Source: Actinomycetota bacterium (GTDB lineage Bacteria > Actinomycetota > Actinomycetes > S36-B12 > CAIYMF01). Taken from it: a DNA stretch of 64,000 bases. The notes beneath the pieces were generated by a model, which was not told the DNA's origin, did not search any database, and was given only the letters and a program-made list of their open reading frames with translations. The stretch lies in NCBI GenBank assembly GCA_020161245.1, contig JAIUOK010000023.1, forward strand, positions 1-64,000, given 5' to 3'. Below are positions 12,605 to 41,934 of this stretch, piece by piece (the first letter of the stretch is position 1; each line of letters opens with the position of its first letter). The position numbers and the translations under genes are program-made.

Positions 12605-12630
12605 ATCGGCGTCATGCCGGTGGGGCTGAG
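12605..12630 (-). promoter_or_regulatory. sigma-28 (FliA) type promoter of fliC
   Basis: On the minus strand CTCAG (12630-12626), 15 bases, GCCGAT (12610-12605). The predicted start of transcription near 12597 gives a leader of about 50 bases that holds the CsrA-type hairpin. Confidence 0.85.
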
Positions 12631-12709: not shown

Positions 12710-13585
12710 TCAGGCGCTGGCGACGACGCGGGCGGCGCCGCCCTGCGGCGGGATCTGGCGCAGGCTGGCGGCCTGGGCCACCGCTGCGAAGTAGGCGGTG
12801 CGACGGCGGTCGACGCAGCCGCCGGGGCGGTCGGACGCCGCGACCTGGTCGGGCTCGAGCGAGGCGTTCATACCGTCGCGGACGAGCTCGAGGGCCTGGG
12901 CGCGCATCTGCGAGACGCGGGACTCCGTGACGTCGAGGACCTCGGCGATGTCGGCCATCGGGCGGCCCTGCAGGTAGTACATGTCGACGACGACGCGCAG
13001 GCGCTCCGGCAGCTCGGCCACCGCGGCGCGCAGGTACCGCACCTGCTCGTTCTTGAGCAGCTCGGCCTCGGGGGTGGGCTCGTCGTGGGGGAGCGCGGCC
13101 TCGAGCGACTCCGGCGAGGGGGCGGCGTCGAGCGACAGCACGGTGGTGCGGTGCAGGTCGTCCTGGATGCCGTCGAGCTCGGCGACGGTGATGCCGAGGT
13201 GCTCGGCGACCTCCGCCGGCGTCGGGGTGCGGCCCAGCATGGCTGAGAGGGCCTCGACCGCCTCGTCGCGCTGGCGGCCGGCCTGGCGCACCGAGCGGCT
13301 CGACCAGCTGCGGCTTCGCAGCTCGTCGACGATCGCGCCGCGGATGCGGGTGCTGGCGTAGCGCTTGAACGGGACGCCGCGGGACTCGTCGAACGCCGTC
13401 GCCGCCTGCACCAGGCCGAGCAGGCCGGCGGAGTGCAGGTCGCCGAGGTCGACGTGGCGGGGGAGCCGCACGGCGATCTCGCGGACGATGTAGCCCACCA
13501 GCGGCATGTGGCTGGTGACGAGCTCGTGGCTGTCGGTCGGCATCGCGGTCATGGGACGAGGTTGACGCGCTCCCATGCCCGCCAC
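12710..13585 (-). CDS. fliA: RNA polymerase sigma-28 factor for flagellar genes (FliA/WhiG type)
   Basis: A 291-residue sigma factor. Region 2 is DLGDLHSAGLLGLVQAATAFDES... PFKRYASTRIRGAIVDELR near 47-90. Region 3 follows (RTPTPAEVAEHLGITVAELDGI). Region 4 is LPERLRVVVDMYYLQGRPMADIAEVLDVTESRVSQMRAQALE near 193-235. Missing region 1 and this arrangement are typical of FliA/SigD/WhiG, which reads GCCGATAA-type -10 boxes like those found throughout this island. A tail of about 50 residues after region 4 is unusual. No flgM anti-sigma gene is visible here. The start could also be the ATG at 13552. Confidence 0.93.
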   Translation of the reverse strand: MAGMGARQPRPMTAMPTDSHELVTSHMPLVGYIVREIAVRLPRHVDLGDLHSAGLLGLVQAATAFDESRGVPFKRYASTRIRGAIVDELRSRSWSSRSVRQAGRQRDEAVEALSAMLGRTPTPAEVAEHLGITVAELDGIQDDLHRTTVLSLDAAPSPESLEAALPHDEPTPEAELLKNEQVRYLRAAVAELPERLRVVVDMYYLQGRPMADIAEVLDVTESRVSQMRAQALELVRDGMNASLEPDQVAASDRPGGCVDRRRTAYFAAVAQAASLRQIPPQGGAARVVASA

Positions 13586-13843: not shown

Positions 13844-13869
13844 CTCAGATCGACCGGTCACGGGCCGAT
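13844..13869 (+). promoter_or_regulatory. sigma-28 (FliA) type promoter of flgN-flgK-flgL-fliW-csrA
   Basis: CTCAG (13844-13848), 15 bases, GCCGAT (13864-13869), 77 bases before the first gene. It lies in the 361-base divergent stretch between fliA and this operon. The rest of that stretch shows no gene, and no promoter with the same spacing is seen for fliA itself. Confidence 0.85.
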
Positions 13870-31330: not shown

Positions 31331-33184
31331 TCAGGCGAGCAGGTCGAGGCGGTCGGTGCGGGTGCCGGGTGCCGTCCGTGGCGTGGCGGGGGTGCGGGTC
31401 GTGCTGGTCGTGGCGCCGGCGAGGGCGTCGGTGCGGGCCGGAGCCGGCGCGGCGGGCTGGCGGGCGTCGTCGCGAGCCGCCTGGCCGCCGGTCGTGAAGC
31501 CCTCGGACACGTCCGCGCTGCCGAGCTGCAGCCCCGCCTGCTCGAGCCCGCGGCGCAGGTCGGGCAGGGCCTCGCGCAGTACGTCGGCGGTCGCGGCGCT
31601 GGCGCCGGCGAGCTGCAGCGAGACGGTGCCGTCGCCGACCTGCAGCCGGACGCGGACCGGGCCGAGGTGCTCGGGGTCGAGGATGAGCGTGGCCTCGTGC
31701 GTCCCCGCGCCCAGCGACCGGAAGCTGCGCACATGGGTGCGGATCTGCTCGGCGACATGCGCCGGAAGCGTCGCGGCAGCGGCCCCGGCGTCCGACGCCG
31801 CCGCCGTTGCCGGGCCTGCCAGCGCAGCCGCGGGCGCGGCGGGCGCAGCGAGCATCGACGGGTCTGCGACGGGCGCTGCTGAGGGATCAACGGGCTCGGC
31901 GGCGCCCGAGGACGTGGGTGCAGCGGCGGCTACCGGGGCCGCCGGAGCCGCGGTTCCGGCGCCGGGCTGGGTCGCCGTGACCGACGACGCGCCTGCGGGG
32001 GCAGCCGGCGCTGCGGGGAGGGCCGGGTCGGCCGGACCGGCCCCCGCGGTCGGCGCGGTCGGCGCCGTCGCGGCGTCGGGCTGACGGCTGGAACCGGCTG
32101 CGGCAGCGGGGATCTCGGACGATCCGGCCGGGGCGGCGGCAGCAGCGGCCGGGCGTGCGCCTTCCGACCCAGCTGCGGGCTGCGCCTCGATCGACGACGC
32201 GTCGCGGCCCGCCGGGGTGGCCGGGGTGGCCGGGGTGGCCGGGGTGGCCGGGGTGGCCGGGGTGGCCGGGGTGGCCGGGGTGGCCTGGCCGCCGTGCACC
32301 TGCTCGACGTCGGAGACGCGCACCGCCGGGGCGGGGACGGCCGGAGTCGCGGCGACGGCCGGAGTCGCGGGTGCTGCGGATCCCGCGGCCATCACCGCGG
32401 CCGCGGCTGCCGGCATGGGCTCGGACGGGGTGGCCGGTGCGGGCCAGGCAGGCTGCTGCGGCGCCGCATCGGCGGGCGCCGGCGCGAGGGATGCGTCGGC
32501 GAAGGGCGGTACGGCGGCGAGCAGGGGTGCGTCGGTGCGGTCGTCGTCCGAGGCAGGAACCGATGCCGCGGCCGCGTGCGCGCGGAGGGACATGCCCTCG
32601 GCGGCCTCGGGGCGGGCCGGGTGCGCGGGGTGCTCCGGGTGCTCCGGGTGGGCCGGGTGCTGGGGGTGCTGAGCGTGCGCTGCGTGCTGCAGGCGCTCCG
32701 CAGGTCCGGTGCCGACCCGCGGCTCCCCTGCGCCGTCGTCGTCGGCCGGCGTCTCGGCGCGGGCGCGGTCCGTCGCAGGGGCCTGCGCGTCGTCGCTCGG
32801 GGTGGCCGGCGCCTCGCCGGCCACGGGAGCCTCCACGGTGTCCGCGACCGCGGCCGGCGCGGCAGGCGCGGCAGGCGCGGCAGGCGTGGCAGGCGTGGCA
32901 GGCGTGGCAGGGGGAGCCGGTGTCGCGGGCTGGGCCGGCGTCGTCCCGGCCTCGAGCGCGGGCTGAGCAGGCGCGGCCGGCTGGGCGGACTGGGCGGACT
33001 GGGCCGGCATAGCCGGCTGGGCCGCGGCGACGGCCGACTCCAGCGCCTCGGCGAAACCCGTGGCGCCCGCGGGCATGACGGCGGGGGAGGCGGACGATAC
33101 CGCTGCGGTGTCGCCGGTCGCGCTGCCCTGTGTCGTCGGCACCGACGGGATCGTCGGCAGGGCGGGGGTGAGCATCACAGTCAC
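31331..33184 (-). CDS. fliK: flagellar hook-length control protein FliK, very Ala/Pro-rich
   Basis: A 617-residue hook ruler. Only the C-terminal domain is conserved (VRSFRSLGAGTHEATLILDPEHLGPVRVRLQVGDGTVSLQLAGASAATADVLREALPDLRRGLEQAGLQLGSADV, about 490-565), which is the Flg_hook domain that contacts FlhB. The preceding 480 residues are low-complexity Ala/Pro/Thr with perfect tandem repeats (ATP x8, APA/TPA x6, HP-rich), consistent with an extended ruler. The GTG at 33184 overlaps the fliJ stop; an ATG at 33175 is an alternative. Confidence 0.88.
   Translation of the reverse strand: MTVMLTPALPTIPSVPTTQGSATGDTAAVSSASPAVMPAGATGFAEALESAVAAAQPAMPAQSAQSAQPAAPAQPALEAGTTPAQPATPAPPATPATPATPAAPAAPAAPAAVADTVEAPVAGEAPATPSDDAQAPATDRARAETPADDDGAGEPRVGTGPAERLQHAAHAQHPQHPAHPEHPEHPAHPARPEAAEGMSLRAHAAAASVPASDDDRTDAPLLAAVPPFADASLAPAPADAAPQQPAWPAPATPSEPMPAAAAAVMAAGSAAPATPAVAATPAVPAPAVRVSDVEQVHGGQATPATPATPATPATPATPATPATPAGRDASSIEAQPAAGSEGARPAAAAAAPAGSSEIPAAAAGSSRQPDAATAPTAPTAGAGPADPALPAAPAAPAGASSVTATQPGAGTAAPAAPVAAAAPTSSGAAEPVDPSAAPVADPSMLAAPAAPAAALAGPATAAASDAGAAAATLPAHVAEQIRTHVRSFRSLGAGTHEATLILDPEHLGPVRVRLQVGDGTVSLQLAGASAATADVLREALPDLRRGLEQAGLQLGSADVSEGFTTGGQAARDDARQPAAPAPARTDALAGATTSTTRTPATPRTAPGTRTDRLDLLA
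32214..32285 (-). repeat. 8 perfect tandem copies of a 9-base unit inside fliK
   Basis: The unit GGGGTGGCC (plus strand) is repeated eight times without a mismatch and encodes Ala-Thr-Pro repeats on the minus strand. The nine-base period keeps frame when copies are gained or lost, so this is a candidate length-variable site. Confidence 0.95.
32856..32909 (-). repeat. 6 tandem copies of a second 9-base unit inside fliK
   Basis: GGCGCGGCA three times followed by GGCGTGGCA three times; encodes Ala-Pro-Ala and Thr-Pro-Ala repeats. One base separates the two repeat types, suggesting stepwise duplication. Confidence 0.92.
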
Positions 33185-33627
33185 GGCGTGCCGTCCTCGG
33201 GGGAGATCTGGTGGCGTCCGTGCCGGGAGGTGACGAGGTCGTCGGTCTCGCGCTGCTCGAGAGCAGCGCGGTGGTCGTCGTCGAGCTGGCGCGCGCGGTC
33301 GACGAGGCTGTCCATGCCCTCGCGGTCGCGGTCGGCGGAGATCCAGGCATCGCGGGCCGCGGCGGTGGCCGCTGCGCGGGCGAGCGCCTCCTGGCGCGCG
33401 GTGATGACGAGCGCGGCCATCGCATGCTGGGCGGCCATGACCGACCGGAACTCGCGGGTGGTCAGGTGCTCGTGCACCGGTAGCGCGTCGATGGCCTCCT
33501 CGAGGTCGCGCACGCGCCGGTCGGCCTGCGCCTGCTCGGCACTGGCCTCGCCGAGACGGGTGCGCGCCTTGCGCTCGCCGAGCTCGCGCAGGCGCAGGAG
33601 GAGGTCGAGCTGGCCGATGCGGCTCAT
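33181..33627 (-). CDS. fliJ: flagellar export protein FliJ
   Basis: A 148-residue, almost wholly helical coiled-coil protein (LDLLLRLRELGERKARTRLGEASAEQAQADRRVRDLEEAIDALP, LVDRARQLDDDHRAALEQRETDDLV), the central stalk of the FliI ATPase and chaperone escort. Name rests on length, heptad pattern and position between fliI and fliK. The ATG overlaps the fliI stop (ATGA). Confidence 0.88.
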   Translation of the reverse strand: MSRIGQLDLLLRLRELGERKARTRLGEASAEQAQADRRVRDLEEAIDALPVHEHLTTREFRSVMAAQHAMAALVITARQEALARAAATAAARDAWISADRDREGMDSLVDRARQLDDDHRAALEQRETDDLVTSRHGRHQISPEDGTP

Positions 33628-34928
33628 AGCCCACCCACCAGCTCGTGCAGCCGGGCCCACGCGTCGTCGAGGCCCGCGTGCTCGTGCACGGTCTGCTGGA
33701 GGAAGGCGTCGATGCGGGGCGCGAGAGCGCGCGCCAGGTCGACGTCGGGGTCGGTGCCGGGGACGTACGCGCCCACGTCGATGAGCAGCTTGGCCTCGCG
33801 GTGCGCGGCCATGAGCCGGCGCAGGGTGGCGGCGTCGCGCTGCTGCTCGGGGGTGGTGACGGTGCCGGCGAGGCGCGAGACCGAGCCGAGCACGTCCACC
33901 GCTGGGTAGTGGTGGGCGTTGGCCAGACCGCGGTCGAGCACGATGTGCCCGTCGAGGATCGACCGCGTGGTGTCGCCGATGGGGTCCTGGATGTCGTCGC
34001 CCTCGACGAGCACGGTGTAGATGCCGGTGATCGTGCCGGTCTCGCCGGGTCCGGTGCGCTCGAGGAGTCGGGGGAGCATGGCGAACGCCGACGGCGGGTA
34101 GCCGCGGGTCGCGGGCGGCTCGCCGGCGGACAGGCCGACCTCGCGCTGCGCCATGGCCGTGCGGGTGACCGAGTCCATGAACAGCAGCACGTCGAGGCCC
34201 TGGTCTCGGAAGTCCTCGGCGATGCGCGTCGCGGCGAACGCTGCGCGCAGGCGCACGACCGGCGGCTCGTCCGACGTCGCGACCACGACGACCGAACGGG
34301 CCAGGCCCTCGGCCCCGAGGTCGTTCTCGAGGAACTCGCGCACCTCGCGTCCGCGCTCGCCGACGAGCGCGGCGACGACGACGTCGGCGGTCGTGCCCCG
34401 GGCGATCATCGACAGCAGCGTCGACTTGCCCACGCCGGAGCCGGCCATGATGCCGATGCGCTGGCCGCGGCCCACGGGGGTGAGGGTGTCGAGGGCGCGC
34501 ACGCCGAGTCCCATCTGCTCGGTGATGAGCTGGCGCCGCATGGCGTGGGGTGCCGCGTTCTCGATGGGGACGCGCGGCAGGTGGTCGAGCGACGGGCCGC
34601 CGTCGACCGGGCGGCCGAGGCCGTCGAGCACCCGGCCGAGCAGCGCCGGGCCGACCGGCACGGTGAGCGGGCGGCCGGTCGCGCGGGCGGGGACGCCCGG
34701 GCCCAAGCCGTTGGTGGGCCCGAGCGGCATGCAGGCGAGGCGCCCGCTGTCGGCGCCGACGACCTCGGCGGGCAGGACGCCGCCCGCGCGCCCGAGCGCG
34801 ACGACGTCGCCAACGGCGGCGTCGATCCCCTCGACCCAGGCGGTGAGCCCGGTGACGGAGGTGACCGAGCCGTGCACGTCGGGGCGGACGGCGTCGGCGG
34901 CGCGGGTGCGCAGGGCGGCGAGGGTCAC
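33624..34928 (-). CDS. fliI: flagellum-specific export ATPase FliI
   Basis: A 434-residue F1-beta-like ATPase that energises export. Walker A is GSGVGKST (163-170) and Walker B is LDVLLFMDSVTR; the export-type LSAGEPPATRGYPPSAFAMLPRLLERTG follows. An N-terminal beta-barrel spans about 15-85. The GTG at 34928 overlaps the fliH stop (GTGA). Confidence 0.97.
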   Translation of the reverse strand: MTLAALRTRAADAVRPDVHGSVTSVTGLTAWVEGIDAAVGDVVALGRAGGVLPAEVVGADSGRLACMPLGPTNGLGPGVPARATGRPLTVPVGPALLGRVLDGLGRPVDGGPSLDHLPRVPIENAAPHAMRRQLITEQMGLGVRALDTLTPVGRGQRIGIMAGSGVGKSTLLSMIARGTTADVVVAALVGERGREVREFLENDLGAEGLARSVVVVATSDEPPVVRLRAAFAATRIAEDFRDQGLDVLLFMDSVTRTAMAQREVGLSAGEPPATRGYPPSAFAMLPRLLERTGPGETGTITGIYTVLVEGDDIQDPIGDTTRSILDGHIVLDRGLANAHHYPAVDVLGSVSRLAGTVTTPEQQRDAATLRRLMAAHREAKLLIDVGAYVPGTDPDVDLARALAPRIDAFLQQTVHEHAGLDDAWARLHELVGGL

Positions 34929-35662
34929 AGTGCGCCCTCCCCGCCGAGCAGGGCGGCGCGCAGGCGGTCGCGTGCAGCGTCGAGCGTGGCGTCGATGTGG
35001 CGGGCGCCGCTGTCGGCGACGGCGCTGCCTGCCGGGACCGAGACGTCGGCGACGACATGGACCTCGCGGTGCGCGACCGCGGCGATGTCGACGCCGGCGT
35101 CGCGCAGGGCGGTCACGTCGACGGGGTTGAGGTGGAGGCGGAGGGCGCTGCCGCGCGCTGCCTCGCCCGCGGCACGGCGGATCGCTCCCACCACGTGCAG
35201 GCGGTCGGCCTGGAGCTCCTGGCCGAGGAGCGCCTCGACGAGGTCGTGGACCAGCGGGCCCAGCTCCGCACCGACGGCGTCGTAGGCCGGGACGGCGCGG
35301 GTCTCGAGGTGCTCGGCGGCGGCGACCAGCGCGGCGGTGGCGGAGTCGAGGCGCTCGAGCGCGGCGGCGAGGGCGGCCTCATCGGTGCGGCGCCGGCGCT
35401 CGGCCTCCTCGGCCGCGGCGGCGCGCCCCTCGACCAGTCCGAGGGCGTAGCCGGCGTCCCAGCCCTCGGTGTGCCCGCGCTCCGCGGCGTCGCGGGCGGC
35501 GTCCTCGACCACGGCCACGAGCCGCGGGTCGACCACGCGCGCGTCCGGGCGCAGCTGGCGCAGCAGGTCGGTGCCGCGCAGGTGCGCGTCGAGGCGCGCG
35601 GGTGCGACGCGGCCGGCCTCCTCGGCCGTGAGCACGCGGGCCTCAGGCGACGAAAGCGTCAT
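34925..35662 (-). CDS. fliH: flagellar assembly protein FliH
   Basis: A 245-residue regulator and tether of FliI. A GYALGLVEGRAAAAEEAERRRR segment near 70-92 is a FliH/YscL-type glycine-and-helix region, followed by a helical and alpha/beta C-domain (LVHDLVEALLGQELQADRLHVVGAIRRAAGEA, LRLHLNPVDVTALRDAG). It overlaps fliG by 20 bases. Confidence 0.88.
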   Translation of the reverse strand: MTLSSPEARVLTAEEAGRVAPARLDAHLRGTDLLRQLRPDARVVDPRLVAVVEDAARDAAERGHTEGWDAGYALGLVEGRAAAAEEAERRRRTDEAALAAALERLDSATAALVAAAEHLETRAVPAYDAVGAELGPLVHDLVEALLGQELQADRLHVVGAIRRAAGEAARGSALRLHLNPVDVTALRDAGVDIAAVAHREVHVVADVSVPAGSAVADSGARHIDATLDAARDRLRAALLGGEGAL

Positions 35663-36671
35663 CGTCGCCCCTCTGGATCACGATCTGGCCGGAGTCCTCG
35701 AGGCGGCGGATGATCCGCACGATCTTGGCCTGGGCCTCCTCGACGGTGGACATGCGCACGGGCCCGAGCAGGTCGATCTCCTCGGCGAGGTTCTCGGCGG
35801 CGCGGGTCGACAGGTTGCCGGTGACCTTGGCGCGCACATCGGCGCGGACACCCTTGAGAGCGACGGCGAGGTCGTTGCTGTCGACCTCGCGCAGCACGAC
35901 CTGAACGGAGCGGTCGTCGAGGGTGATGATGTCCTCGAACATGAACATCATCGCCCGGACCTGCTCGGCCATAGGCGCGTCGATCGACTCGAGGCCCTCG
36001 AGGATGAGGCGCTCCGTGGCGCGGTCCGAGCGGTTCATGATCTCGACCAGCGGGTCGAGGCCGCCGACGGTCGACATCTCCTGCGGCTGAAGAATGCTCG
36101 ACATCCGGCGGTGCAGCACGGTCTCGACGCGCTTGACGATGTCGGGCGAGGTGCGGTCCATCGAGGCGATGCGGTGGGCGACGTCGGCCTGCAGCTCGGG
36201 GGCGAGGTTCGACAGCACGATGGAGGCCTGCTGCGGGTCGAGGTGGGCGAGGACCAGCGCGATGGTCTGCGGGTGCTCGTCCTGCAGGAAGCTGAGCAGC
36301 TGGCGCACGTCGGTGCGGCGCAGGAACTGGAACGGCAGCTCCGAGATCGCGGCCTCGAGCCGGCCCATGACCTCGCGGGCGGCGTCGTAGCCGAGGCCCG
36401 CCTCGAGCAGCTCGCGGGCGTAGGACATGCCGCCGTGCGCGGCGAGGGACCGCGCGGTCACGGTGTGGGAGAACTCCTCGACCACGGCTTCGGCCACGCC
36501 GGCATCGACGTGCTCGAGGCGCGCGATCTCGGCGACGAGCTCCTCCATCTCGGCCGGCGGCATCTCCGAGAGGATGCGCGCGGCGGCCTCCTGGCCGAGC
36601 TGCACGAGCAGGATCGCGGCCTTGCGCAGGCCGGTCAGCTCCTCGGTCTTGGTGGTCATGGTCTGGGTCAC
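35643..36671 (-). CDS. fliG: flagellar motor switch protein FliG
   Basis: A 342-residue rotor protein that binds FliF, FliM and MotA. Conserved blocks: GLRKAAILLVQLGQEAAARIL, the EHPQTIALVLAHLDPQQASIVLSNL motif near 132-156, and the C-terminal torque domain FEDIITLDDRSVQVVLREVDSNDLAVALKGV with DLLGPVRMSTVEEAQAKIVRIIRRLEDSGQI. The GTG at 36671 overlaps the fliF stop; an ATG four codons in is possible. Confidence 0.97.
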   Translation of the reverse strand: MTQTMTTKTEELTGLRKAAILLVQLGQEAAARILSEMPPAEMEELVAEIARLEHVDAGVAEAVVEEFSHTVTARSLAAHGGMSYARELLEAGLGYDAAREVMGRLEAAISELPFQFLRRTDVRQLLSFLQDEHPQTIALVLAHLDPQQASIVLSNLAPELQADVAHRIASMDRTSPDIVKRVETVLHRRMSSILQPQEMSTVGGLDPLVEIMNRSDRATERLILEGLESIDAPMAEQVRAMMFMFEDIITLDDRSVQVVLREVDSNDLAVALKGVRADVRAKVTGNLSTRAAENLAEEIDLLGPVRMSTVEEAQAKIVRIIRRLEDSGQIVIQRGDDDAFVA

Positions 36672-38266
36672 CGACCGCTCGCGATCCAGCCGCGGAGCAG
36701 CTGGGCGACCTCGTCGGGCTGGGTGGCCACGAGCTCGTGGATGTCGGACTTCTGCTTCTCGATGGCCTTCGGCTCGTCGGCGGGGAGGACGACGGCGTCG
36801 AGCGGTGCGGCGTCGGAGCCACGGGTGATGGCGAGCGGCTGCGGCGCGAAGCCGAGGGCGCCGAGCTCCTCGGCGTCGAGCAGCTGGCGCTTCTGCTTCC
36901 GCGAGGAGAGGAAGGCGAGCACGATCACGATGAGGACGAGCAGGATGATCCCGGCCTTCTTCACCAGGTCGAACAGCATCGTCTTGCTCTCGGCGTCCGC
37001 GGCGGCGGCCTCGGCCGCGGCGGCGGCGTCAGTGGCGCTGGTGTCGAACTTCATCGGCGTGACCTGGATGGCGTCGCCGCGGGTGGCGTCGAAGCCGACC
37101 GCGTTGGCCACGGCGGTCGTGAGGGCCGTGGTGTCGACGGAGCCTGCGGCCCCGTTGACGAGCACGGAGACGGTGAGGCGCTTGACCGAGCCGGGTGCAC
37201 CGGTGCGCTGCTCGATGATGCTGTTGACCAGGTTGTCCTGGGTGTTGGTCGTCTTCTGGTACTGGTTGCCGCTGCCCGTCGTCGAGCCGGCGGTGGTGCC
37301 GGTGCCGGTGCCCGCGGTGGTGGTGCCGTTGCCGACGCCGACGATGCCGCCGGGGACCGCGCCGCTGCCGGTGAAGGTCTCCGTGCTGTTGGTCTGCGAC
37401 GACGGCGGGATCGTCTTCGGGTACTCGTACGACGTGTCGGTGCGCGTCCACTGGTCGAAGTCGAGCGCGGCGTTGACGCGGACGGCGACGTTGCCGACGC
37501 CGAGCGCCTTCTCCAGCAGCGACTGGGCGTTGACCTCGAGGGCGCCCTCGACCGCCCGCTGGGCGCGGATCTGCGAGCTCGCCGAGCTGCCGCCGCCCGT
37601 GCCCGTCGTCGAGAGCAGCGCGCCGCTCGAGTCGGTGATGGTGACGTTGGCCGTGGTGAGCTGCGGGACCGACGAAGCGACCAGGTTCTGGATGGCGGTG
37701 ACCTGCTCGTCGCTGAGCTCGGTGCCGGCGCCCATGGTGACCATGACGGCCGCGGTGGGCTTGTCGGAGTCCTGCGTGAAGACGCTCTTCTCCGGGAGCG
37801 CGAGGTGCACCGACGCCGCCTTGACGCCGTCGATGGCCTCGATGGTCTTGGCGAGCTCGCCCTCGAGGGCGCGCTGGTAGGTCACGTTCTGCATGAACTC
37901 CGAGGTCGTGATGCCCTGCTGGTCGAGCAGCGCGTAGCCGCCGCCGGTGTTGGCGGGCAGCCCCTGGGAGCTCATGGCGAGACGGGTCGCGTAGACCTTG
38001 TCCTGCGGCACGAGGATCGTCGTGCCACCGTCCTGCAGCTCGTACGCGGTGCCGGTGGTGTCGAGCTGCTGCACGACGGCGGCGGCGTCCTCGGTGGAGA
38101 GGTTGCTGTAGAGCGGCGAGAGCGACGGCGCGCTCCAGCGCATGAACGCGAACGCGGCCAGGACGAGACCCGCGACACCGATGACGATGACACCGATCTG
38201 CCCCGGCGTGAAGCCGGCCATCGCGGAGCGGGCACGGCGCAGGCCGTCCTGGACGATCGCGCTCAC
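36668..38266 (-). CDS. fliF: flagellar MS-ring protein FliF
   Basis: A 532-residue membrane ring protein. Helix 1 ([19 protein letters not shown], about 24-42), the YscJ-like ring-building domains ([42 protein letters not shown]), a Gly/Thr-rich loop with TGTGTT-type repeats near 300-340, helix 2 ([17 protein letters not shown], near 440) and a FliG-binding tail ([22 protein letters not shown]). The GTG start overlaps the fliE stop. Confidence 0.96.
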
Positions 38267-38586
38267 AGCGGCATCCTCATGATCTCGTTGAAGGCCTCGA
38301 TCGCCTTGTTGCGCACGGCGACGGTCATCTGGGTCGTCAGCGACGCCTCGCTGGCGGCGATGAGGTAGTCGTGGGCGTTGGTCAGGGTGCCGGTCGCCGC
38401 CTGGACGGCGAGGTCGTCGGCCTTGGCCTGCACGGCGCTGAGGTTGTCGACGGCGCCGGCGAGCGAGGTGGCGAAGCCGCCGCCCTGCGGCGAGGCAACG
38501 CGGGAGGCGCCCGTGATGCCGCCGGCCGCGCCTGCCGGGCCGATCGGCCCGACCGGCGGGACGACGCCGATTCCGGTGATGCTCAT
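38263..38586 (-). CDS. fliE: flagellar hook-basal body complex protein FliE
   Basis: A 107-residue protein joining the MS ring to the rod. The C-terminal 70 residues are FliE ([70 protein letters not shown]). It lies between flgC and fliF with four-base overlaps on both sides. Confidence 0.95.
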
Positions 38587-38996
38587 GCGTTCCTGCCGAT
38601 CTGCAGCGCCGTCTGGTACGCCTGCGTCGCGCGCTCGACCACGGCGAGGTTGGCCTGGTAGCCGCGCTGCGCCTGGATGAGCTGGGTCATCTGGTCGCCG
38701 AGGTCGATATCCGGGCGGCGCACATAGCCATCGGTGTCGGCGAGGGGGTTGTCGGGCTCGTAGACCACGCGGCCCTCGGCGTTGCCGAGGGCGATCCCCG
38801 TGACGTTCACGCCCTTCGGGTCCCCGGCGGCGAAGCCGTCGGCCGACTGGGCGACGACGTAGCGGGCCTGGAATGCCGACTCCGACGTCGAGCGCACCGT
38901 GTTGATGTTGGCGATGTTGTCCGACACGCAGTCGAGCCAGACCCGGTTGAGGTTGGTGCCCGAGCCGGCGATGGAGAAGACGTCGAACAGGCCCAT
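38583..38996 (-). CDS. flgC: flagellar basal-body rod protein FlgC
   Basis: A 137-residue proximal rod protein. N-terminal rod signature [28 protein letters not shown] and C-terminal [47 protein letters not shown]. The ATG at 38996 overlaps the flgB stop with GGAG upstream. Confidence 0.96.
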
Positions 38997-39355
38997 CACG
39001 AGCTCCTCAGGACGTCGCGGATGACACCCATGCGCCCGTCGACGGCGCGCACGGCCAGCGAGTACTGCAGGTTCGTCTTCTGCTGCAGGAGCGTCTCGCG
39101 CTCGAGGCTGACGTTGTTGCCGTCCTCGCGGGCCGGGTCGTCGGTCCACGCCTGGCTGATGGTGCCGGACAGCGACGAGGGGTCGAGGTAGGGGTTGGAG
39201 CCGAGGGCGGCGTCGAGCGCCGACTCGAACTCGACGCTGCGGGCGCGGTAGCCGGGCGTCTGGATGTTCGCGACGTTGTCGGCGGAGATGCGCAGCCGCT
39301 GCTGGAGGCCGTCCAGCGCGACGTCGACCGCCGGGATGACGAGCCGGTCGTCCAT
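38996..39355 (-). CDS. flgB: flagellar basal-body rod protein FlgB
   Basis: A 119-residue proximal rod protein, first gene of the eleven-gene flgB-to-flgE unit. It has the rod signature [27 protein letters not shown] (about 21-47) and the FlgB C-terminus [43 protein letters not shown] lies upstream of the ATG at 39355, and the promoter is about 85 bases upstream. Confidence 0.96.
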
Positions 39356-39499: not shown

Positions 39500-40606
39500 T
39501 CAGGCCCCGGGGAACCGGTCGTACCACGCCTGGAAGGCGGCGTTGATGCGCGCGTACGCCTGCGGGGCCGACTGCTCGAGGTGCCCGGCCCATCCGGAAT
39601 GGCCCAGGCCCCACGACGACCAGTCGGTGCCGCCCTTGGTCATGCGGTAGACCGCCGACGCCGCCTTGACGGGGTCGTAGACGTCGGTGGCGCTGATGCT
39701 GCGGCCGAGGTGGATGTCGTTGAGCTGGAAGAGCCCGTGGTCGCGCGTTCCGTTGGAGTTCACCGGGCTCAGCGCACCGGGCCGCCCGTGCGACTCGCGC
39801 ATGGCCACCGCCCACGCGGTGCGCAGGCCCTCGCCGGAGAAGCCGGCGTCCTGCAGGACCGACACCAGCTGCTGCGCGGAGAGCTGCGCCTTCGGGTCCC
39901 TCACGGACGACGCCGCGCCCACGGCCGAGGCGGCGCCGACGCTGGAGGCGGCGTACGCGGACACGGCGGCGGCCCCCAGCACCTCGCTCGGCGCGCGGGC
40001 GACACCGTCGCCCTCCGGCGCGATGCGGCGGATCCGGACCAGGTGCGCCGTGTCGACGTCGGCGATGCGCGTGTCGGCGCGGCGGTTCGCCGCCTCGACC
40101 ATCTTCCCGTCCCCGAGGTAGATGGCCACGTGGTTGATCCCGAGCGGCGACGGGTCGTTGCGGTGCCCGCCGGGCTCGTGGAAGAACAGCAGGTCGCCGG
40201 GCTTGGCGTCGGCGAGCGAGTCGACGGGCGTGCCCTGCTTGACCTGCTCCCAGGAGACCTCGGGGATGTCGATACCGAACTGCTCGGCCACCCAGTGCGT
40301 GAAACCCGCGCAGTCCCAGCCCTTCGGCGACCTGCCGCCGGCGACGTAAGGCACGCCGGTGAAGCGCTTGGCCCAGGCGGCCAGGTCGTCGCCGTCCGCG
40401 CCCGAGGCCCTGCCGCGGCTGCCGGCCGCCCAGCCGACGGAGCCGGAGGAGCCGTCGGCCCCCTGCACGACGTCGGCCAGGGCGGTGGCGAAGTCGGTGC
40501 TCGAGGACGACGTCGTCGACGCGGCCACGGGCGGCGCGAACACCCCGAGGGCGTAGGCACGGCTCTGGATCGTGGCGATGCGCGACGTGACGTCGGCGAA
40601 GGACAC
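39500..40606 (-). CDS. two-domain flagellar peptidoglycan hydrolase: NlpC/P60 endopeptidase plus lysozyme-like domain
   Basis: A 368-residue protein. Residues about 75-190 form an NlpC/P60 domain with catalytic Cys99 (KGWDCAGFTHW) and His159 (GINHVAIYLG). Residues about 240-365 form a lysozyme/transglycosylase-like domain (LRTAWAVAMRESHGRPGALSPVNSNGTRDHGLFQLND) with a candidate catalytic Glu271. There is no signal peptide or membrane helix; the N-terminus (FADVTSRIATIQSRAYALG) is amphipathic and looks like those of flagellar rod/hook export substrates. With its sigma-28-type promoter and position beside flgB this suggests a flagellar-secreted enzyme that opens the wall for the rod, in place of FlgJ. 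The export route is inference. Confidence 0.9.
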   Translation of the reverse strand: MSFADVTSRIATIQSRAYALGVFAPPVAASTTSSSSTDFATALADVVQGADGSSGSVGWAAGSRGRASGADGDDLAAWAKRFTGVPYVAGGRSPKGWDCAGFTHWVAEQFGIDIPEVSWEQVKQGTPVDSLADAKPGDLLFFHEPGGHRNDPSPLGINHVAIYLGDGKMVEAANRRADTRIADVDTAHLVRIRRIAPEGDGVARAPSEVLGAAAVSAYAASSVGAASAVGAASSVRDPKAQLSAQQLVSVLQDAGFSGEGLRTAWAVAMRESHGRPGALSPVNSNGTRDHGLFQLNDIHLGRSISATDVYDPVKAASAVYRMTKGGTDWSSWGLGHSGWAGHLEQSAPQAYARINAAFQAWYDRFPGA

Positions 40607-40663: not shown

Positions 40664-40689
40664 ATCGGCCCTGATGCAGGCGACCTGAG
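40664..40689 (-). promoter_or_regulatory. sigma-28 (FliA) type promoter of the peptidoglycan hydrolase gene
   Basis: On the minus strand CTCAG (40689-40685), 15 bases, GCCGAT (40669-40664), 57 bases before the gene start and directly beyond the EAL gene stop. Confidence 0.82.
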
Positions 40690-40701: not shown

Positions 40702-41934
40702 TCAGACCTGGGTGCGGGCCGGTGCCCCTGCGCCGTCAGCGGGCGCAAGGTCCGACGCCGGACCCGGGCGCCCGAAGTGCCAGCCCTGGCCGTGGTCGAC
40801 GCCGAGCGCGCGCAGCGCGTCCGCCTCGCGGGCGTCCTCGATGCCCTCTGCGACCACCGTCGCGCCCGCCGTGTGCCCGAAGTCGACGAGCGAGCGGACC
40901 AGGGTGCTCAGCACCGGGTCGTCGCACACCCCGTGCACCAGGGAGCGGTCGAGCTTGATGACGTCGGGATGGGCCAGCACGATGTGCCGCAACGACGAGA
41001 AGCCGGCCCCGACGTCGTCGACGGCGAGCCGCATCCCCGCGTGGCGCAACGGCTCGATGGCCTCGGACAGCTCGTCGTAGTCGTCGACGGGGTCGTGCTC
41101 GGACAGCTCGAGCAGCACCCGCGGCGCGTCGAGCGCCGACAGCGTGTCGATCACCTGCGGGAGCTGCAGCGTCGCGGGGGAGAGGTTCATGGCGACATAG
41201 CCGCCGATCTCGTCGAGGTGCTCCGCGGCCCGCATGAGCGCCAGCAGCTCGAGCTCGTGCCCGAGGCCGACGCTGTGGGCCTGGGCGAACACGACGTCCG
41301 GGGTCAGCCCCCACTCGGCGGGGAACCGGCTCAGCGCCTCCGCGCCCACGCGCCGACCCGTAACGAGGTCGACGATCGGCTGCACCACCACGACGGGGCC
41401 GCCGCGCTCGATGACCGGCAGGATGCGGTCCTCGATCTCGGAGCGGCGCTCGTGCTCGACGACCTCGGGCTCGAGCACGACCGCAGCAGCGCGGGCGAGC
41501 ACCTCCATGAGCGCCTGGTCGCGCTTGGTCAGCGCCTTGTCGGTCGTGAGGCCGGCAGCGCAGAACGTCCCGTAGAGGCGGCCGTCGGACAGACGCACGG
41601 GCACCGACACGTAGCTGCGGATGCGCGGCATGCGTGCTGCGGGGAGCTTCATCCCGGCGTCGTGGCGGGTGAGGTCGGGGATGACCGGGGGCAGCTCGCC
41701 GTCGAGGATGGCCTGGCACAGCGAGGTCGCCTGCACCTGCGTGGCGCCCTCGCGGAACAGCAGCGACGCCGGCCCGGATGCTTCGACCACCTCGATGTGC
41801 TGCGTGGTGCCGTCGAGCCGCGACAGGAACGCCACCGACAGCCCGAGCGCCTGGCGCGCGGTCGCCAGCAGCTCGGCCACCTGGCGGTCGGTGCCGGAAC
41901 GGCCCGGCCGCTCGCGGCGTGTGAGAAGGGCCAC
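40702..41934 (-). CDS. GAF-EAL cyclic-di-GMP phosphodiesterase
   Basis: A 410-residue cytoplasmic protein. An N-terminal GAF sensor domain covers about 15-155 and an EAL domain about 175-395. The EAL catalytic positions are present: Glu199 (GAEALSRF), Asn250 (AMNLSP), Glu276 (LLELSE), Asp306/Asp307 (AVDDVGAGFSS), Lys327 (IKLDRSLV) and Glu363 (VAEGIEDA). It should hydrolyse c-di-GMP to pGpG, which favours motility. No GGDEF partner is nearby. The GTG at 41934 lies right after a sigma-28-like -10 box, so the message may be leaderless. Confidence 0.93.
   Translation of the reverse strand: MALLTRRERPGRSGTDRQVAELLATARQALGLSVAFLSRLDGTTQHIEVVEASGPASLLFREGATQVQATSLCQAILDGELPPVIPDLTRHDAGMKLPAARMPRIRSYVSVPVRLSDGRLYGTFCAAGLTTDKALTKRDQALMEVLARAAAVVLEPEVVEHERRSEIEDRILPVIERGGPVVVVQPIVDLVTGRRVGAEALSRFPAEWGLTPDVVFAQAHSVGLGHELELLALMRAAEHLDEIGGYVAMNLSPATLQLPQVIDTLSALDAPRVLLELSEHDPVDDYDELSEAIEPLRHAGMRLAVDDVGAGFSSLRHIVLAHPDVIKLDRSLVHGVCDDPVLSTLVRSLVDFGHTAGATVVAEGIEDAREADALRALGVDHGQGWHFGRPGPASDLAPADGAGAPARTQV

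Follow-up and report, generated by a model that had tools for sequence, protein, structure and literature searches.

A two-domain peptidoglycan hydrolase before flgB in an actinobacterial flagellar cluster, a candidate for opening the cell wall to the rod

How does the flagellar rod of an actinobacterium pass the thick peptidoglycan, and is an enzyme encoded among the flagellar genes involved? A phylogenomic study of 2023 described the later actinobacterial classes as lacking FlgF, FlgG and FlgJ and named as open the assembly and rotation of the simple rod in thick peptidoglycan (PMC10746217); NlpC, SLT and hydrolases are not mentioned in its main text. For Bacillus subtilis it has been proposed that the rod searches for existing holes, the dedicated lyase is missing and may not be needed (PMC12153297). 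The DNA analysed here, a stretch of 64 kb referred to as the window in its whole length, raises this question by a peptidoglycan hydrolase gene in its flagellar cluster:

39500..40606, minus strand: dual peptidoglycan hydrolase gene, 368 amino acids, GTG start, assigned by open reading frame and coding bias together with Pfam domains; heads the flgB operon region
40052..40357, minus strand: NlpC/P60 (C40) endopeptidase domain (Pfam), amino acids 84-185, with C99 (codon 40310-40312) and H159
39611..39853, minus strand: SLT_3 (PF18896) lysozyme-like domain (Pfam), amino acids 252-332, with E271 (codon 39794-39796)

With a GC3 of 0.97 the reading frame is a good coding ORF. An earlier note on this DNA had proposed the fusion of an NlpC/P60 endopeptidase and a lysozyme-like domain in one protein, and both domains were recovered by Pfam, NLPC_P60 (PF00877) with an E-value of 4.5e-18 and 65.6 bits (cut-off 23) and SLT_3 with 9.4e-18 and 64.9 bits (cut-off 27). 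The scan of the hydrolase yielded in addition SLT and a sub-threshold CHAP match, and nothing else. The catalytic residues C99 and E271 were located where the note had placed them. An alignment of 56 flagellar C40 domains showed C99 and H159 to be invariant; the third position of the C40 domain is occupied by E171 in the hydrolase and mostly by H or E in the relatives. E271 was invariant in six aligned SLT_3 domains. The C40 domain matched the structure 4hpe, which we take to be a CwlT / Tn916 Orf14-type enzyme of conjugative elements. A single-sequence structure model of the hydrolase had a pLDDT of 37 and was left out of the evidence. The absence of a Sec-type signal, likewise claimed before, agreed with the hydropathy of the N-terminus: on a crude score, which is not a signal-peptide predictor, the best 11-residue value in residues 1-45 was 1.69 versus 2.38-2.55 in four signal-peptide-bearing SLT_3 relatives, thus a Sec-like hydrophobic core was not present. 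The N-termini of five other NlpC/P60 genes in the genome were signal-peptide-like. A search of the genome contigs for related loci revealed one distant C40 locus only.

The hydrolase gene is followed on the same strand by flagellar genes, in the order flgB, flgC, fliE, fliF, fliG, fliH, fliI, fliJ, fliK, flgD and flgE:

38996..39355, minus strand: flgB, proximal rod protein (TIGR01396, 65.3 bits), next downstream of the hydrolase gene
38263..39000, minus strand: flgC and fliE, FliE by Pfam PF02049, flgC by position and similarity to the loci of the survey
33624..38266, minus strand: fliF, fliG, fliH and fliI, remainder of the operon
40664..40689, minus strand: FliA-type promoter CTCA-N16-GCCGAT, about 58 bp before the hydrolase start codon
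1347-1372: FliA-type site before cheA
12605-12630: FliA-type site before fliC
13844-13869: FliA-type site before flgN/flgK

A flagellar promoter and a place beside flgB had been noticed from the bare sequence; the FliA-type site and a distance of 144 bp between the hydrolase gene and flgB bear this out. Four FliA-type sites were present in the 64-kb window versus 0.73 expected, and all four preceded motility units, namely cheA, fliC, flgN/flgK and the hydrolase gene. Genome-wide the pattern occurred 44 times in 4.29 Mb versus 14 times for the reversed control, thus a lone FliA-type site carries little weight, and it is their clustering that counts. A sigma factor gene at 12710-13585 likely codes for FliA. 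Directly upstream of the hydrolase gene and on the same strand (40702-41934, minus strand) lies a gene for a GAF-EAL protein, likely a c-di-GMP phosphodiesterase, which may tie c-di-GMP to flagellar assembly. The FlgJ rod-binding domain PF10135 had no match in the whole genome, nor was it among the Pfam matches of the hydrolase.

A route out of the cell is suggested by the N-terminus, which consists of a short predicted helix, with RIATI at amino acids 9-13, and a low-complexity linker:

40541..40606, minus strand: N-terminal helix module, amino acids 1-22 (MSFADVTSRIATIQSRAYALGV), with '..RI..I' kept across the flagellar relatives
40478..40492, minus strand: gate-recognition-like motif FATAL, amino acids 39-43 (F39-x-x-x-L43), assigned by linker conservation and by a position as in the early substrates of the cluster

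Among the linkers of the flagellar relatives, 62 of 67 contained an F-x-x-x-hydrophobic motif, versus a mean of 14.7 after shuffling. In a set reduced to less than 60 % identity, this filter alone accounting for kinship, F-x-x-x-L/M was present in 38 of 41 linkers with 4.8 expected by shuffling. Spacings of +2, +3, +5, +6 and +7 were at chance in these 41 linkers, and +8 (10 of 41, expected 4.5) was slightly above chance and inside the shuffle range. Only two of 25 non-flagellar C40 proteins had the F-x-x-x-L/M spacing. The motif lay at a median of residue 38, in 54 of 61 cases at residue 30 or later. The linker around it was otherwise unconserved, so the short helix and the motif are the constant parts. 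Early substrates encoded in the same cluster presented the same pattern, FESAL in FlgB (residue 43), FATSL in FliE (38), FAEAL in FliK (about 37), FLKLL in FlgD (about 43) and FEDTL in FlgE (41), which places their motif starts at residues 37-43 versus 39 in the hydrolase. The gate recognition motif of Salmonella FlgD covers residues 36-40 (PMC8983047). Since F39-x-x-x-L43 matches this Salmonella motif, the sequence gives good support to the predicted export of the hydrolase through the flagellar gate. Export by this route had been suggested in the earlier note, and nothing speaks more strongly for it than the likeness, in type and in location, of the motif to those of the early substrates.

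The association with the flagellum was then seen in other genomes as well. FliF was present in only three of 59 related genomes (G004, G051 and G057), and exactly these carried a relative of the hydrolase immediately before flgB. The relatives in G051 and G057 have the C40 domain only (61 % identity over C40), the relative in G004 the SLT_3 domain only (59 % identity). The N-terminal module is retained in each of these proteins, its F-x-x-x-L motif lying at residues 50-54 or 54-58, and the hydrolase gene of G051 is preceded, at about 50 bp, by a FliA-type site (CTCA-N16-GCCGA). Promoter, gene position and the co-occurrence with FliF in three of three genomes thus uphold the link to the flagellum drawn in the earlier note. 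SLT_3 proteins of family f3 (L040-L044), from the same order, were considered as further flagellar homologues and ruled out: they bear signal peptides of the Sec type and a peptidoglycan-binding-like repeat, and FliF was not found in their genomes. The lysozyme domain of the hydrolase may therefore have been recruited from a Sec-type enzyme of this kind.

For a survey of the phylum, flagellated genomes were found by FlgB (52 of 395 in the class, 61 of 396 in the phylum) and their loci were fetched. A related hydrolase was encoded in the flagellar cluster at 72 of 79 actinobacterial loci. In the class, where 45 loci with flgB, fliI and flgE were counted, the window and its three relatives included, 43 had a hydrolase: 24 C40-SLT, 16 C40 only, and one each of SLT only, SLT_3 only and C40-SLT_3, the last being the window. 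In the other classes it was 29 of 34 loci, with three SLT-C40 and five C40-SLT proteins and the remainder C40-only or SLT-only; one locus had C40 and SLT as separate genes. Pfam confirmed the domains in ten surveyed hydrolases. The rarity of the two-domain design, implied by the earlier note, did not hold, as C40-SLT or SLT-C40 enzymes were encoded in 33 of 79 loci, window included; the occurrence of both orders in other flagellar loci rules out a unique design. The reverse order, SLT-C40, was observed in L127, L139 and L147, which points to more than one origin of the two-domain forms. The usual place of the hydrolase gene is between fliI and flgE, whereas in the taxonomic order of the source organism it precedes flgB; in the window the usual slot between fliI/fliJ and fliK (33163-33624) contained no hydrolase.

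No intact hydrolase was found between flgB and flgE in seven of the 79 loci (L093 in G200, L107 in G410, L130, L135, L144, L151 and L157), thus either flagella can do without the enzyme or its gene has another location; these loci are natural controls for the need for it. The SLT frame of L151 was broken. Beyond these seven, G620 had the same gap in the fetched region and a module-bearing copy elsewhere on the same contig. Second flgB-like genes outside flagellar clusters were observed at L083 and L115, in genomes of family f22 (G344, G399). In the C40 phylogeny, the hydrolase grouped with the proteins of G051 and G057 (L037, L038) with a support of 1.0; this group nested among the flagellar C40 domains, and of 25 non-flagellar C40 domains from related genomes 24 fell outside the flagellar ones, both with modest support. 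The hydrolase shares all traits of the actinobacterial flagellar family, namely module and motif, a C40 or lytic domain encoded in the cluster, and the C40 grouping. Judged by these sequence comparisons, the family is phylum-wide and modular, with a constant export-like module and swapped hydrolase domains.

We consider it probable that the hydrolase is an early flagellar export substrate, docked by helix and motif, which opens the peptidoglycan for rod and hook. The N-terminal helix and F39-x-x-x-L43 would dock the protein at the export gate (FlhB), and the hydrolase would leave the cell by way of the rod as it grows. Once outside, stem peptides would be cut by the C40 domain and glycan strands by the SLT_3 domain, and the thick peptidoglycan would be opened locally, near the rod tip, for rod and hook, a role like that of FlgJ. 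Export, enzymatic activity and the part played in wall penetration are inferred; the making of a hole for the rod, proposed in the earlier note, is plausible. A point against this explanation is that export would require the unfolding of an enzyme fold of about 300 residues. The absence of the enzyme between flgB and flgE at seven of 79 loci also speaks against it and would fit an enzyme that, after passage through the gate, remodels the wall at flagella already completed, or contributes to movement over surfaces, and makes no hole for the rod. The model for such a function is CwlQ, the SLT enzyme of the flagellar regulon in B. subtilis. CwlQ was reported as needed for swarming and dispensable for flagellar assembly, in a reference as cited by PMC12153297, and this likewise speaks against a hole-making enzyme. 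We regard a function of this type as unlikely, considering that the gene heads the rod-basal body operon in the window and in other genomes is flanked by genes of the basal body and the hook, and that the motif is of the early, not the late substrate type.

That the N-terminal module has a mainly structural function, as a FlgJ-like cap at the rod tip with the hydrolase domains riding along, is very improbable. The missing FlgJ rod-binding domain in the genome, the published absence of FlgF, FlgG and FlgJ from the later classes of Actinobacteria (PMC10746217) and the retention of the module whichever hydrolase comes after would be in line with a cap, but the module has about 45 residues with one predicted helix and the motif only, and similarity to rod proteins was not found, the single-sequence model being of low confidence. 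Least probable of all, and hardly to be expected, is an ordinary wall hydrolase with flagellar neighbours by chance, released by another route. It is true that the order contains SLT_3 relatives which are ordinary Sec-secreted enzymes, but conserved cluster position, promoter, FliF co-occurrence, the export-like motif and the lack of a signal-peptide core argue against chance. Returning to the gate-exported enzyme that opens the wall, a more far-reaching version is conceivable, though rather doubtful: Actinobacteria may have evolved their own replacement of FlgJ, a family in which varied hydrolase domains, in either order, were grafted onto a short export module that possibly binds the rod tip, and which drills the wall as the rod grows. 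In any case the family offers a concrete candidate for the penetration of the wall, present in most surveyed flagellar clusters of the phylum and with a recognisable export-like motif.

Peptidoglycan hydrolases that serve the flagellum are known already, in the form of FlgJ, SltF, LTaseBb and CwlQ. CwlQ resembles the hydrolase of the window as an SLT enzyme tied to the flagellar regulon of a thick-walled bacterium, and differs by its single SLT domain. The CwlT / Tn916 Orf14-type enzymes also unite lysozyme and NlpC/P60 in one protein that serves a trans-wall secretion machine, however with the order lysozyme-C40, a Sec-type export and a function in type IV secretion. SltF of Rhodobacter is Sec-exported. 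Together with LTaseBb (BB0259) of Borrelia, for which Sec export was proposed, SltF belongs to the dedicated flagellar lytic transglycosylases (PMC8517470). In contrast to the hydrolase of the window, both are single-domain enzymes partnered with FlgJ. FlgJ of Salmonella and other beta- and gammaproteobacteria leaves through the flagellar gate, as is predicted for the hydrolase of the window, and joins a rod-related part at the N-terminus to a peptidoglycan hydrolase at the C-terminus (PMC8517470; PMC4752226). It differs by the rod-cap domain PF10135 and one GH73 glucosaminidase, whereas the hydrolase combines C40 peptidase and SLT_3 behind a short N-terminal module only. GH73 was not detected in the hydrolase by the Pfam scan; lacking both defining domains, the hydrolase is not a FlgJ. 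A description of the actinobacterial family, of its export-like module or of the domain swapping was not found in the literature searched, mostly outside subscription journals, and within this literature the exchange of wall hydrolases as modules behind a single export tag is new for flagella. The other actinobacterial flagellar C40-SLT and SLT-C40 proteins share the N-terminal module, the C40 clade and the flagellar cluster with the hydrolase of the window, and differ by an SLT domain of PF01464 in place of SLT_3 and by their location between fliI and flgE.
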